Virus record (IMG/VR): IMGVR_UViG_3300024289_000590
Coordinates: 1-31,686 of that record
Source: a virus
Direction: 5' to 3' (one strand)
Length of the DNA: 31,686 bases
The notes below the pieces were generated by a model. That model ran no database searches. It saw nothing but the letters and a program-made list of their open reading frames with translations, and was not told the DNA's origin. How positions within the stretch are numbered: the first letter of the stretch is position 1; each line of letters opens with the position of its first letter. Positions 8,185-29,843 of the stretch are shown one piece after another. Position numbers and translations under genes: made by a program.

Positions 8185-8615
8185 AAATCGGTTTTACTTG
8201 TAGTACCTTCGATCTGTTTCATGCAGGTCATATCATGATGCTTAAAGAAGCAAAAACAGTCTGTGATCATTTAATCGTAGGATTACAAACAGATCCTACT
8301 ATTGATCGTCCGGACACCAAAAATAAACCTGTTCAAAGCGTGTTCGAACGATACGAACAGCTCAAAGCCTGCAAATATATTGACGAAATCCTAGTCTACG
8401 AAACCGAAGCTGATCTTGTAAACATCTTGCTTTCTTATCCTATAAATGTTAGAATACTAGGACAAGAATACGAAGATAGAGACTTCACCGGTAGATATGA
8501 ATGTATTAATCGTGGTATAGAATTTTATTTTAACAAACGTGAACATAACTTTTCGACTAGCGAACTACGCAGCCGTGTGATAGCCGCTGAAGTAGAAAAA
8601 GGACTAAGACAATGA
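8181..8615 (+). CDS. Cytidylyltransferase-family nucleotidyltransferase (TagD/RfaE-like)
   Basis: A protein of 144 residues. The N-terminus MKIGFTCSTFDLFHAGH carries the HxGH nucleotide-binding motif (His14, His17), and the C-terminus has FSTSELRSRV, the ISTSxLR-type loop that binds the triphosphate. RYEQLKACKYIDEI also fits glycerol-3-phosphate cytidylyltransferase and ADP-heptose synthase type enzymes. The product would be a CDP- or ADP-activated alcohol or sugar for a surface polymer or lipid. The neighbouring nucleotide-sugar dehydrogenase and D,D-peptidase suggest a joint role in host envelope or glycan metabolism, which is inference. Coupled by ATGA overlaps at both ends. Confidence 0.8.
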   Translation: MKIGFTCSTFDLFHAGHIMMLKEAKTVCDHLIVGLQTDPTIDRPDTKNKPVQSVFERYEQLKACKYIDEILVYETEADLVNILLSYPINVRILGQEYEDRDFTGRYECINRGIEFYFNKREHNFSTSELRSRVIAAEVEKGLRQ

Positions 8616-9526
8616 AAGAACTATGGGTTGAGAAGTACCGTCCTAAAAAGATGGACGGATATGTGTGGCGAGACAATGCGCAACGCAGACAGGTTGAGAC
8701 TTGGGTCAAGGAAAAAAGTATTCCACACTTACTTCTAAGCGGTCCTCCAGGTATCGGTAAGACTACCATGGCCAAGATGCTGGTTAATGAGATCGGTATC
8801 GAAGATGCCGATGTATTAGAAGTTAACGCCAGTCGAGAAACTGGTATCGATTTTATCCGTAATAAAATCGTTCCGTTTATCAGTAGCATTGCGTGGGGGC
8901 CATTTAAGGTTGTATTACTCGACGAAGCAGATCGGTTAAGTCCACATGCACAGGATTCACTTAAAGGTATCATCGAAGAATATAGCAACTTTGCTAGATT
9001 TATCCTAACCTGCAATAATCCTAATATGGTAGTACCAGCACTACATAGTCGCTGCCAGCAGTGGCATTTTACTAAACTAGATCAGACAGAGTTTACTGCT
9101 CGCGCAGCCACTGTTCTAGTTGAAGAAGCGATTGATTTTGATCTAGAAACATTAGACTTATATGTCTCAACAACATATCCTGATCTCCGCAAATGTTTGA
9201 ATCTTCTTCAACAGAACTGTAGCGAGGGCAAACTACACAGTCCTGCCAAAGAAGATGCTGGATCGCTCGAATGGAAGTTTGAGATGGTTGAACTTTTCAA
9301 GGCTAAAAAGATCACCGAAGCAAGAAAACTGCTCTGCGGAAAACTACAAGCAGATGAGATGGTGCATGTTTACAGATGGCTTTATGATAATCTAGAGCTG
9401 TTCGGTGATGAAAAAACACAAGACAGAGCTATTTTCATCATCAAGGCAGGACTTGTGGATCACACATCATGCATCGATCCAGAGATTAATCTTAGCGCAA
9501 CATTAGCAAAGCTGGCTAATCTGTGA
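8612..9526 (+). CDS. 44: Sliding-clamp loader large subunit, gp44-type AAA+ ATPase
   Basis: A protein of 304 residues (T4 gp44 is 319). It starts LWVEKYRPKKMDGYV, the typical clamp-loader opening. Walker A is GPPGIGKT (44-51), Walker B is VVLLDEADRL with DEAD at 104-107, and the SRC motif containing the arginine finger is at 146-148. The subunit would form the ATPase ring with gp62 and load the gp45 clamp on primer ends for gp43. The small subunit gp62 is not in this window, whereas gp43 and gp45 lie about 17 kb to the right, so the replication genes are split. It is the last gene of the coupled operon and ends inside the 5' arm of a convergent hairpin. Confidence 0.92.
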   Translation: MKELWVEKYRPKKMDGYVWRDNAQRRQVETWVKEKSIPHLLLSGPPGIGKTTMAKMLVNEIGIEDADVLEVNASRETGIDFIRNKIVPFISSIAWGPFKVVLLDEADRLSPHAQDSLKGIIEEYSNFARFILTCNNPNMVVPALHSRCQQWHFTKLDQTEFTARAATVLVEEAIDFDLETLDLYVSTTYPDLRKCLNLLQQNCSEGKLHSPAKEDAGSLEWKFEMVELFKAKKITEARKLLCGKLQADEMVHVYRWLYDNLELFGDEKTQDRAIFIIKAGLVDHTSCIDPEINLSATLAKLANL

Positions 9527-9546: not shown

Positions 9547-10266
9547 TTATTGATCACCGTATATCGCTAGTATCTCCTTTACAGCTTCATGTCTCTCGAC
9601 ATCAGAGATAGTGAAATGACATACGTCTACGTATCTGTGATTGTCGAAGTTATTATACAGATTTAAAAACTCTAAAAGGCCGTTATTACTGGGTCGATCT
9701 GCTTGTTGTAGATCTCCTGTAACGACCATTCTTGACCCCTGACCTAACCTAGTTAACAGCATCTTCATCTGACTAGGTGTAGCATTCTGCATCTCATCAG
9801 CAATGATCACAGCGTTCTTAAATGTACGTCCTCGCATGTACGCTAGTGGACTTGTTTCAATCACCCCCTCTCTAACAAATCCTTCGATTTCGCGTTGATT
9901 AAAGTTTTCTGCGAAAACATCCATTATAGGCTTAGTCCACGGCTCCATTTTTTCTTGTAGGGTGCCTGGTAAAAACCCATGCTCTTCATCTACTGATACA
10001 GCTGGTCTTGTAATAATAATCTTATCAACTTCACCGTATTTGAGCTGGTCTATAGCCCATTGCACAGCCAACATGGTCTTACCCGTTCCGGCTGGACCGA
10101 TAGCAAAAACAATAATTTTTTGTTGATCGTTGAGCTTTAAAAGATAAGTCTCTTGACTGAGGTTTTTGGGGTATATTTGAACTCGCTTGCGTTTCTGTTC
10201 AATGCGTTGATTGATGTTTATTACATTCTCTTGCAGATATGCTGCTTGCGCTCTTTTTCGCTTCAT
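9547..10266 (-). CDS. phoH: PhoH-like P-loop ATPase
   Basis: A protein of 239 residues, the only minus-strand gene. Walker A is GPAGTGKT (57-64). It is followed by IIITRPAV, GFLPGTLQEKMEPWTKPIMD, an ADEMQNATPSQMKM Walker B region, and TRLGQGSRMVVTGDLQQ then D-R-P. These are the signature blocks of PhoH proteins (ATPase with proposed RNA helicase/ribonuclease-related activity), a very common T4-like marine phage gene of unsettled role. The frame is open further upstream, but ATG at 10266 has the only good ribosome site (AAGGAGGG at 10278-10285, spacing 11) and the extra upstream residues do not resemble the family. The basic N-terminus (MKRKRAQAA) is notable. Confidence 0.88.
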   Translation of the reverse strand: MKRKRAQAAYLQENVININQRIEQKRKRVQIYPKNLSQETYLLKLNDQQKIIVFAIGPAGTGKTMLAVQWAIDQLKYGEVDKIIITRPAVSVDEEHGFLPGTLQEKMEPWTKPIMDVFAENFNQREIEGFVREGVIETSPLAYMRGRTFKNAVIIADEMQNATPSQMKMLLTRLGQGSRMVVTGDLQQADRPSNNGLLEFLNLYNNFDNHRYVDVCHFTISDVERHEAVKEILAIYGDQ

Positions 10267-10384
10267 ATGTAGGTTAGCCCTCCTTGATTGTGTTAGGCAC
10301 GGACCTAGACCGTAGTGCCCGTACCGGACACAAAAGTATTTAACTTTGGGCGTAGAAAGTAATATGTAATGATTCTTTTTTGAC

Positions 10385-10392
10385 GATAAATA
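10385..10392 (+). promoter_or_regulatory. Candidate T4-type late promoter (GATAAATA)
   Basis: The octamer lies 14 bases upstream of the ATG at 10407, in true intergenic DNA at the head of the lysis-containing block. By T4 spacing the transcript would start near 10398, within the AAAAGGAG ribosome site, leaving a very short leader. It is one of the few copies outside coding sequence. Confidence 0.6.
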
Positions 10393-10406
10393 CAAAAGGA
10401 GATACT

Positions 10407-26307: not shown

Positions 26308-26317
26308 TATAAGGTTC

Positions 26318-26369
26318 GATCAGCCATAAATGATCAGTTGGGTATTTGCGAGCCGAAAATCGCAAGGAG
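26318..26369 (+). promoter_or_regulatory. Tandem hairpins before gp43: candidate autogenous translational operator
   Basis: Hairpin 1: GATCA (26318-26322) and TGATC (26331-26335) around loop GCCATAAA. Hairpin 2: TTGCGA (26346-26351) and TCGCAA (26360-26365) around loop GCCGAAAA. Both loops have eight bases, six of them identical. The 3' arm of hairpin 2 runs into the gp43 ribosome site AAGGAG (26364-26369). T4 gp43 represses its own translation by binding a hairpin with an 8-base loop next to the ribosome site, so the same type of control is likely here. Confidence 0.6.
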
Positions 26370-26375
26370 AAAAAT

Positions 26376-29045
26376 ATGAGTTACGTTGACGCATTCTATG
26401 ATCGCGAAGACGACATTATTCGTGTCGTTGAGCGCAATGAAAAAGGTGAAAGGCATTTTAAAGATTATCCTGCCAAGCATCTTTTCTATTATTACGATCC
26501 CAAGGGCAAGTATCAAAGTATCAAAGGTGAACCACTCACCCGTGTAGTCTGTAAAAATATCAAAGAACTACGAAAAGAACTTGCTATACATTCAAACAAA
26601 AAGCTATACGAATCAGACATCAATCCTATCTTTAGATGTCTAGAAGACCATTATATCAACATTGACGCTCCAAAACTAAATGTAGCATTTTTCGATATTG
26701 AGGTCGATTTCGACCCTGCTAGAGGATATGCTAGCCCAGACGATGCATTTATGCCTATCACATCTATCGCTGTGCATCTACAATGGGTTGACACATTAGT
26801 TTGTTTAGCTATGCCACCTAAGACGCTATCTATGGCTGAAGCAACCAAGGCTGTAGAAGATTTTCCTAATACCATGCTATTCGACAACGAAGCAGATATG
26901 TTAGATGCTTTTCTAGATCTGATACAAGATGCTGATGTTTTAAGCGGGTGGAACAGTGAAGGGTTTGATATTCCCTATACGGTCAATCGTGTTACCAAAG
27001 TCCTAAGCAAAGAAGATACACGTCGTTTCTGCCTTTGGAACCAATATCCTAAGAAAAGAGAGTATGAAAAGTTTGGTAAGACAGCGGTCACATATGATCT
27101 AATCGGTCGTGTTCACTTAGATAGTCTTGAGCTATATCGCAAATATACCTATGAAGAGCGTCACACTTATCGACTAGATGCGATCGGTGAGATGGAGATT
27201 GGCGAAAACAAAACAGTCTACGAAGGCACACTCGATGCGTTGTATAACAATGACTTTAAAAAGTTTATTGAATACAACAGACAAGATACAAGCCTACTTG
27301 ATAAGTTAGATAAAAAACTAAAGTTCTTAGATCTGTCAAACAAGATCGCACACGAAAATACTGTATTGCTACAGACAACTATGGGTGCGGTAGCTGTTAC
27401 TGAACAGGCTATTATCAATGAAGCACATCGCAGAGGTATGATCGTTCCTAATCGTAAGAAGATGGAAGAACACGGTGATACACAGGCCGCAGGTGCGTAT
27501 GTTGCATATCCTAAGAAAGGCATCCACGAGTGGATTGGTTCTTTAGATATTAACTCATTGTATCCTAGTGCCATTCGTGCATTAAACATGGGGCCCGAAA
27601 CTATCGTAGGACAACTGCGCCAAGATGGGACCAAAGCACACCTCGAAGCTGAAATGGCCAAAGGTAAGAGTTTTGCGGCCGCTTGGGAAGGCATCTTTGG
27701 AAGTCTAGAATACACTTCAGTGATGGAAAGAGAAGTAGGACGAGACATAACTATCGACTGGGAAGGTGGCGGCAGCGATACCCTTAGTGCCGCTCAAGTT
27801 TATGATCTTATATTTGAAAGTAATCAACCATGGATGATCAGTGCCAACGGTACTATCTTCACATATGAAACTGAAGGAATCATTCCTGGTCTGCTAGCTC
27901 GTTGGTATAAAGAGCGTAAAGAGATGCAGGCCAAACTTAAAGAATCTATCGCGGCAGGTAACAAGATTGAAGAAGAATATTGGGACAAGCGTCAACTGGT
28001 TAAAAAGATTAATCTTAATAGCCTTTATGGTGCAATCCTTAATCCTGGTTGTCGCTTTTTCGATAATAGGATCGGGCAATCTACCACGCTTACGGGCAGA
28101 GCTATTGCAAAACATATGGCCAGTAAAGTAAACGAAATCATTACCGGAGAGTATGACCATATCGGTCGAGCTATCATCTACGGTGACACAGACTCTTGTT
28201 ACTTCTCTGCGTATACTACGCTAAAGAAGGACATTGAGAAAGGATTGATTCCTTGGACTAGAGAATCAGTCGTAGAACTTTATGACACCATAGGAGAAAC
28301 TGTAAATGGAACCTTCGTCAAGTTCATGTCAGACGCTTTCCACGTGCCAAAATCTAGAGGAGAGGTCATCAAGGCAGGTCGCGAGATTGTTGCAAGCAAA
28401 GGACTCTTTATTACAAAGAAACGATATGCAGTCCTCTACTACGACAAAGAAGGCAAGCGATCAGACGTCGACGGCAAACCAGGCAAGATTAAAGCCATGG
28501 GGCTCGACCTCAAGCGGTCAGATACCCCGGTTGTTATCCAAGACTTTCTCAGTGAAGTCTTGACCCGAGTACTAAATGGCGTACCTAAAGAAGAAGTGTT
28601 AGAATATATCACTGACTTCCGAACCGATTTTAAAACTAGACCAGGTTGGGAAAAAGGTTCACCTAAACGTGCCAACAACATTACAGAGTATGCAGCCAAA
28701 GAAAAGAAAGCAGGCAAGGCCAATATGCCAGGTCATGTTAGAGCTTCCTTAAACTGGAATACTTTGAAACGTATGTTTGACGACAAGTATTCTATGACTA
28801 TCGTAGACGGTGCCAAGGTCATCGTCTGCAAGCTCAAAGAAAATCCTATGGGCTATACATCTGTGGCTTACCCAGTCGACGAACTGAGATTGCCGCAGTG
28901 GTTTAAAGATCTTCCATTTGACGATCATCAGATGGAAAATACCGTTATCGATGAAAAGCTAGAAAACTTGATCGGGGTCCTTGAATGGGACATCAGTCAA
29001 ACTAGAAGCGATAATACCTTTAACAAGTTATTTGATTTTGAGTGA
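26376..29045 (+). CDS. 43: DNA polymerase, family B, gp43
   Basis: A protein of 889 residues (T4 gp43 is 898). ATG 26376 follows AAGGAG with six bases spacing; the in-frame TTG at 26346 lies in the operator hairpin. The proofreading exonuclease has FFDIEVDFD (Asp107, Glu109) and an EYNRQDTSLLDKL Exo III block. The polymerase has DINSLYPS (391-398), KINLNSLYGA and YGDTDS (602-607) with the catalytic aspartates, followed by a KKRYAVLYYD block. No intein, intron or split, unlike some relatives. It would replicate the phage genome with the gp45 clamp that follows and gp44 further left. Confidence 0.97.
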   Translation: MSYVDAFYDREDDIIRVVERNEKGERHFKDYPAKHLFYYYDPKGKYQSIKGEPLTRVVCKNIKELRKELAIHSNKKLYESDINPIFRCLEDHYINIDAPKLNVAFFDIEVDFDPARGYASPDDAFMPITSIAVHLQWVDTLVCLAMPPKTLSMAEATKAVEDFPNTMLFDNEADMLDAFLDLIQDADVLSGWNSEGFDIPYTVNRVTKVLSKEDTRRFCLWNQYPKKREYEKFGKTAVTYDLIGRVHLDSLELYRKYTYEERHTYRLDAIGEMEIGENKTVYEGTLDALYNNDFKKFIEYNRQDTSLLDKLDKKLKFLDLSNKIAHENTVLLQTTMGAVAVTEQAIINEAHRRGMIVPNRKKMEEHGDTQAAGAYVAYPKKGIHEWIGSLDINSLYPSAIRALNMGPETIVGQLRQDGTKAHLEAEMAKGKSFAAAWEGIFGSLEYTSVMEREVGRDITIDWEGGGSDTLSAAQVYDLIFESNQPWMISANGTIFTYETEGIIPGLLARWYKERKEMQAKLKESIAAGNKIEEEYWDKRQLVKKINLNSLYGAILNPGCRFFDNRIGQSTTLTGRAIAKHMASKVNEIITGEYDHIGRAIIYGDTDSCYFSAYTTLKKDIEKGLIPWTRESVVELYDTIGETVNGTFVKFMSDAFHVPKSRGEVIKAGREIVASKGLFITKKRYAVLYYDKEGKRSDVDGKPGKIKAMGLDLKRSDTPVVIQDFLSEVLTRVLNGVPKEEVLEYITDFRTDFKTRPGWEKGSPKRANNITEYAAKEKKAGKANMPGHVRASLNWNTLKRMFDDKYSMTIVDGAKVIVCKLKENPMGYTSVAYPVDELRLPQWFKDLPFDDHQMENTVIDEKLENLIGVLEWDISQTRSDNTFNKLFDFE

Positions 29046-29105: not shown

Positions 29106-29843
29106 ATGAAAGACATTTTACAAGATATCGTGGGTCATACACAGAACCTCGGTTTTCTAACTACCGTCAAGGTAACAGGTACAGAAGAAAAGACAACTAT
29201 TAACTCAATGGCAGATGACCGTTCAGTTATCATGGAAGCTGAAACTTCTGCTCCATATGCAGACATGATTGGCGTATTCGGTATGCCGCAACTGCAAAAG
29301 CTAAAGTATCTGCTAGATGGTGCAGAATACAAAGATGATGCTAAAATCACTATCACTACAGCAGAACGCAATGGCGAAACTATTCCTGTAGGCATCCACT
29401 TTGAAAACAAAGACGGTGACTTCAAGAACGACTATCGTTTTATGAACTCAGAAATCATCAACGAAAAGATGAAGACTGTCAAGTTCCGTGGTGTTAAGTG
29501 GGACGTAGAAGTAGAACCTACTGTTGCTGCTGTACAGCGTTTTAACTTCCAAGCAGGTGCTAACAACGAGCATCCAACATTCCTTGCCAAGACAGAAGGT
29601 GGAAATCTAAAGTTTATCTTCGGTGATGCATCAACACACGGCGGAGAGTTTATCTTTGCACAGAATGTACCAGGTAAACTTGATCGTGGTTGGACTTGGC
29701 CTGTGTTGCCTATCTTGAGTATTCTTAAGATTTCAGATGTCAACAACACCAAGATGTCATTGAGCAATGAAGGCGCTATCCAGATCACGCTAGACAGCGG
29801 ATTGGCAACTTACAAATACATTATTCCAGCACAGGCGGCCTAA
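29106..29843 (+). CDS. 45: Sliding clamp, gp45
   Basis: A protein of 245 residues, slightly longer than T4 gp45 (228). There is no catalytic motif, as expected. The alternation of strands and two helices per repeat, the opening LQDIVGHTQNLGFLTTVKV, the middle FIFGDASTHGGEFIF and the C-terminus MSLSNEGAIQITLDSGLATY with YIIPAQ match the clamp family of T4-like marine phages. The trimeric ring holds gp43 on DNA and in T4 also activates late transcription with gp33 and gp55. ATG follows CTGGAGAAC. It has its own promoter separate from gp43. Confidence 0.88.
   Translation: MKDILQDIVGHTQNLGFLTTVKVTGTEEKTTINSMADDRSVIMEAETSAPYADMIGVFGMPQLQKLKYLLDGAEYKDDAKITITTAERNGETIPVGIHFENKDGDFKNDYRFMNSEIINEKMKTVKFRGVKWDVEVEPTVAAVQRFNFQAGANNEHPTFLAKTEGGNLKFIFGDASTHGGEFIFAQNVPGKLDRGWTWPVLPILSILKISDVNNTKMSLSNEGAIQITLDSGLATYKYIIPAQAA

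Follow-up and report, generated by a model that had tools for sequence, protein, structure and literature searches.

Twin compact units, probably pseudoknots, as a putative operator in the DNA polymerase leader of uncultured aquatic phages

Phages T4, RB69 and RB49 have provided characterised cases of autogenous control of the DNA polymerase. The T4 polymerase, gp43, binds a hairpin-containing operator that overlaps the ribosome site; the operator loop reads UAAC in both T4 and RB69 and UAAA in RB49, nothing points to a pseudoknot in the gene 43 operator, and some T4-related polymerases do not autoregulate (reviewed in PMC3014915). According to a 2010 review, the pseudoknot of T4 gene 32 was perhaps the only viral pseudoknot in translational autoregulation. 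In the T4-type gene 32 operator, the target of the single-strand binding protein gp32, one pseudoknot lies 67 nt upstream of the start and is followed by A+U-rich (UUAAA) repeats that take gp32 cooperatively.

The locus described here belongs to a 31.7-kb virus record of IMG/VR, the whole of which was analysed and is called the window below. The top PDB match of its polymerase is RB69 gp43 (E=1.1e-61), and the nearest isolates, at 43–51% identity, are jumbo phages (Phosso, Atu_ph07, Vibrio 2.275.O and the 121Q/Munch/CBB types). Adjacent plus-strand ORFs of the window overlap or lie at most 2 nt apart in 26 of 41 pairs. The features of the locus are the following.

26308–26375, plus strand: polymerase leader of 68 nt, from the preceding gene to the polymerase, holding both units (ORF list)
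26313–26335, plus strand: unit 1 (sequence; covariance model match of 17.2 bits)
26313–26315: unit 1, S1 5' strand, GGT
26316–26317: unit 1, L1, TC
26318–26322: unit 1, S2 5' strand, GATCA
26323–26325: unit 1, S1 3' strand, GCC
26326–26330: unit 1, L3, ATAAA
26331–26335: unit 1, S2 3' strand, TGATC
26341–26365, plus strand: unit 2 (sequence; covariance model match of 31.3 bits)
26341–26343: unit 2, S1 5' strand, GGT, followed by L1, AT(T)
26346–26351: unit 2, S2 5' strand, TTGCGA
26352–26354: unit 2, S1 3' strand, GCC
26355–26359: unit 2, L3, GAAAA
26360–26365: unit 2, S2 3' strand, TCGCAA
26364–26369, plus strand: Shine-Dalgarno sequence AAGGAG, abutting or overlapping the end of unit 2, an arrangement repeated in relatives
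26376–29045, plus strand: DNA polymerase family B of T4 gp43 type, 889 aa, ATG at 26376 (phrog_262, E=1.4e-197); candidate regulated gene and autorepressor

Elsewhere in the window, an AAA clamp-loader-like gene occupies 8612–9526 and a PhoH-like ATPase is encoded on the minus strand (9547–10395) amid otherwise plus-strand genes. Directly after the polymerase, 29106–29843 encodes a 245-aa protein of phrog_12062 (unknown), which may be a sliding clamp, because the clamp of Phosso is annotated shortly after its polymerase.

The initial annotation had described twin hairpins with matching 8-nt loops at 26318–26369. Hairpin 1 is GATCA-GCCATAAA-TGATC (26318–26335) and hairpin 2 is TTGCGA-GCCGAAAA-TCGCAA (26346–26365); they are spaced by 10 nt, and their loops are identical at six of eight positions. 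The pair is real: virtually every one of the ~80 closest relatives shows both hairpins. Stems and loops stand as they were placed, and it is the start of each unit that had to be moved, 5 nt further 5', to the GGT at 26313 and 26341. Hairpin 2 had also been credited with sequestering part of the ribosome site. This holds in the window, where the AA of AAGGAG lies inside the hairpin, and in some relatives, but in most of them the stem ends 1–4 nt before the Shine-Dalgarno sequence. Although the twin pattern as described arose in just 3 of 20,000 local dinucleotide shuffles, about 0.25 such patterns are expected per shuffled window strand; the lone sequence is therefore suggestive and not compelling, and relatives were needed. 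The single units are marginal hairpins (-3 to -8 kcal/mol), and the minimum free energy of the 101-nt region is no better than that of shuffles (z = 0.57).

Polymerase loci were gathered in three IMG/VR scans, for relatives of the window (87–100% identical), of L087, whose polymerase is 69% identical to that of the window, and of L155. In an alignment of 62 distinct units (A2), which was chosen partly on pairing, 96% of the paired cells hold standard pairs and all five S2 pairs vary on both sides; the covariation score is 0.555, whereas shuffles give 0.200 and slid structures 0.133 at most. The search pattern GGTATTTGNNAGCCNNAAATNNCA leaves the inner stem free and so provides a test that is not selected on pairing. 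With it, the inner stem positions of unit 2 were paired in 135/135 distinct contexts, in seven combinations (shuffled mean, 59). Copy 1, which is absent from the search pattern, was present in 136 of the 137 distinct contexts fetched through copy 2, with 31 stem variants and L287 as the sole exception. The covarying stems and constant loops that the initial annotation had proposed to look for among relatives are thus strongly in evidence. On this covariation we regard the S2 hairpins as certain: the loop GCCNNAAR is constant, and the stem is free in sequence yet paired. Chance, or dyads that act at the level of DNA, for example as sites of a DNA-binding repressor, might have been suspected from the quarter of a twin pattern expected per window strand, but arms that vary and stay complementary, together with conservation of the unit across polymerases more than 30% different, refute this explanation, and the probability that we leave to it is negligible.

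A GGY precedes the stem of each unit by 1–3 nt and can pair with the GCC of the loop. It stands before all 75 of the class-B matches listed, though it is absent from the class-B pattern (as read from the matches). Among several hundred units, the loop reads GCU in four leaders (L026, L233, L279 and L353), all of them with AGY, and AGY was never found with a genuine GCC loop. Unit 1 of L279 differs from that of L321 (GGTTTGATCAGCCATAAATGATC) only by G→A and C→U, both at paired positions. On the polymerase tree, L026, L233 and L279 each form a tip of their own amid GGY/GCC relatives (L353 is too short to place). S1 has just 3 bp, commonly including a U-G pair, and draws its support from the covariation of its outer pair in the four leaders; in one leader, L341, TCC breaks the U-G pair. 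An L1 of 1–3 nt over a stem of 4–6 bp, the lack of a linker between the stems and a 5-nt A-rich L3 over a 3-bp stem correspond to the geometry of a compact H-type pseudoknot. Given the GGY/GCC pairing and its compensatory AGY/GCU form, the unit is best read in this way, and each unit probably folds as a tiny H-type pseudoknot. Two other pairings were considered and rejected. Pairing of the unit 1 loop with the GGU of unit 2 conflicts with the single-unit relatives, which retain both GGY and GCC, and with L026, where the compensating change is in the GGY of unit 1 itself; a fourth S1 pair was ruled out on inspection of the leaders.

The constancy of the loop had initially been ascribed to recognition by a protein. 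The constancy is upheld, whereas an open loop of the T4 type is less favoured, since pairing with the upstream GGY accounts for the GCC no less well. A plain twin-hairpin operator, in which no pseudoknot forms and a protein directly reads the open 8-nt loop together with the GGY beside it, would share the S2 hairpins that we consider certain; near-invariant GGY and GCC are also expected from direct recognition, and T4 gp43 does use an open hairpin loop. The exchange of GGY for AGY is, however, matched by that of GCC for GCU in the four leaders, and neither change was seen alone, which makes the plain hairpin unlikely in our judgment.

With the gene 43 operators of T4, RB69 and RB49 they share the gene family, a leader RNA structure at or near the ribosome site, the negative feedback proposed here and a similar hairpin size (18 nt in T4 and 16 nt in RB69). 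They differ in having two units instead of one, a GGY that would pair with the loop, and a loop of GCCNNAAR type where T4 and RB69 have UAAC and RB49 has UAAA; a loop sequence unlike that of T4 had been anticipated from the window. As the loop and the architecture depart from those of the gene 43 operator, we do not file the units as a member of that class, though they probably work alike. The T4-type gene 32 operator is an H-type pseudoknot, as each unit probably is; it too belongs to the leader of a replication gene, with translational repression (proposed here for the units). In contrast to its single, distant pseudoknot and repeats, there are here two short units, the last abutting the Shine-Dalgarno sequence, and they precede the gene of the polymerase and not that of a single-strand binding protein.

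Judged by sequence comparison, the units form an RNA element family that spans hundreds of uncultured aquatic phages. At least one unit was found in about 250 of 285 distinct polymerase leaders of IMG/VR; a permissive finder applied to the last 110 nt gave at least one hairpin in 259 of the 285, a few chance calls included. Under a stricter classification, 274 leaders comprised 129 twin, 118 single, 12 displaced and 15 without a unit, as assigned by an automatic classifier with occasional errors (L220 was called twin; L268 was called none and has both units ~170 nt upstream). In the clade of the window there are two units per leader. The duplication that the initial annotation had stressed is no novelty of this locus: on the polymerase tree, twin units occur all through one main branch, and the other has them in two small groups, which makes twinning old. 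The unit is restricted to an aquatic group on this tree, and the isolate outgroups are without it; none was found in the isolate relatives (Phosso, Atu_ph07, Vibrio 2.275.O, XaC1, CBB, Munch, Asteriusvirus types and a PA5oct-type phage). Within the family, no unit was detectable before the polymerases of L122, L136, L137, L162, L164 and L180, and the unit is therefore dispensable. A description of the motif was not found among open-licence papers. The phage polymerases of L086, L087 and L088 are on contigs in archaeal or Halobacteroidaceae MAGs and are probably misbinned phage sequence.

Most leaders of the other main branch combine a 5' hairpin of another kind (CG-YYC...GRRC-A, in many cases with an AA bulge) with a conserved (A/G)UGUAGAN linker and one unit just before the Shine-Dalgarno sequence. 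The 4-bp stem of this hairpin covaries in L106, L108, L125, L154 and other single-unit leaders (GCUC/GAGC, GCCC/GGGC, GUUC/GAAC), and the linker between it and the unit is conserved as AUGUAGAN. The 5' hairpin may be either a further recognised domain or the remnant of a first unit. A separate observation concerns terminators. In L287, an intrinsic-terminator-like hairpin (GAGTGGTTGATAGGTTTCAACCACTTTTTTT) takes the place of copy 1, immediately 5' of copy 2. The isolates XaC1, CBB and Munch (L489, L490 and L491) have a terminator-like hairpin with a T run, and no unit, in the equivalent intergenic position; that of Munch is annotated as a terminator.

The association of the unit with the polymerase gene is strict. 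All 76 loci among the matches listed for the copy-2 pattern precede a polymerase, as do 74 of the 75 among the class-B matches listed; the 75th contig breaks off after 49 nt and shares the MSY start. Every significant model match in 16 large records, those of 281,658 and 275,366 bp among them, is at the polymerase. This association supports the earlier proposal of a polymerase-specific operator. Some leaders that seemed to lack a unit were an artefact of the short search span: in ten loci (L165, L144, L166, L168, L201, L216, L227, L158, L161 and L156) the unit is displaced, 0.2–1.5 kb upstream of the polymerase, and an inserted gene starts 8–12 nt after it. The inserts are mutually unrelated (a weak 2OG-Fe(II) oxygenase match, a tryptophan halogenase, a ~235-aa protein of unknown family and a 51-aa ORF), and at all ten loci the polymerase start overlaps or abuts the stop of the inserted gene. 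The unit thus remains next to a translation start, and coupling of the polymerase to it may persist. Since the displaced unit is away from the ribosome site of the polymerase and stop/start overlap is common, this coupling is weak evidence for the polymerase as the target.

The comparison cannot name the binder, and an operator for another protein, be it from the host or a repressor that the phage dedicates to this task (RegA-like or other), would accommodate displaced units that precede other genes first. A global repressor such as RegA, however, acts on many mRNAs, whereas the unit was found only before the polymerase, even in records of 275–282 kb; a binder other than the polymerase strikes us as rather less than probable, if worth keeping in mind. 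We also considered an element at the 5' end of the transcript that serves mRNA stability, processing or enhanced translation with no repressor. A T4 late-promoter-like motif, TATAAATA, is found about 75–90 nt upstream of the polymerase in 17 of 129 twin leaders (0.9 expected from shuffles), and sigma-70-like promoters in 18 of 118 single-unit leaders (0.7 expected from shuffles), so that in this subset of relatives the mRNA may start close to the units. Most leaders have no such match, and a simple sigma-70 scan gave no plus-strand promoter near the window's own leader. A stabiliser, moreover, could do without GGY/GCC coupling, an invariant loop or a set place at the ribosome site, and we consider this function quite improbable.

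A tandem small-molecule riboswitch, nucleotide-sensing for instance, deserves mention since tandem arrangements and compact H-type pseudoknots beside the Shine-Dalgarno sequence are known among riboswitches; preQ1-I and SAM-II combine such a pseudoknot with an A-rich loop. The units differ from these two in sequence and have one target gene and no known ligand. The covariance models of Rfam 15, preQ1-I and SAM-II included, gave no match in the window, in its 301-nt leader region at E<=10 or in five relatives. With a core of 22–24 nt, few invariant bases and a stem of free sequence, a riboswitch is very unlikely.

We favour, by a modest balance of probability, the reading in which the twin units are a cis-acting pseudoknot operator in the 5' leader of the polymerase mRNA, probably bound by the polymerase and repressing translation. 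Each unit would have the form GGY-L1(1–3 nt)-S2(4–6 bp)-GCC-NNAAR-S2', with the loop GCC paired back to the GGY in an S1 of 3 bp, no linker between S1 and S2, and an A-rich L3 that could occupy the S1 groove. Since the 3' unit stops at the Shine-Dalgarno sequence, a protein bound to it would keep the 30S subunit off. The polymerase is the likeliest binder; it would repress its own synthesis when off the DNA, as T4 and RB69 gp43 do, and the two units would be two binding sites. We infer repression of translation, the identity of the binder and cooperativity; repression by the polymerase is favoured because of the position of the units and the T4-type precedent. More tentatively, and with the odds in our estimation against it, the tandem minimal pseudoknots, ~23 nt each, may bind two polymerases cooperatively, so that the phage would meter its free polymerase; a 5' hairpin and one unit would serve the same purpose in the single-unit relatives, and the whole would be a previously undescribed RNA family.

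The units provide a compact, well-bounded RNA family in a large group of uncultured aquatic phages, with natural single-unit, twin-unit, displaced and unit-less forms. Should the polymerase prove to bind them, these forms would be a ready series for the choice of a polymerase between its own mRNA and DNA, for the effect of a second site and for the evolution of RNA recognition, and would add a polymerase example to the pseudoknot of T4 gene 32.
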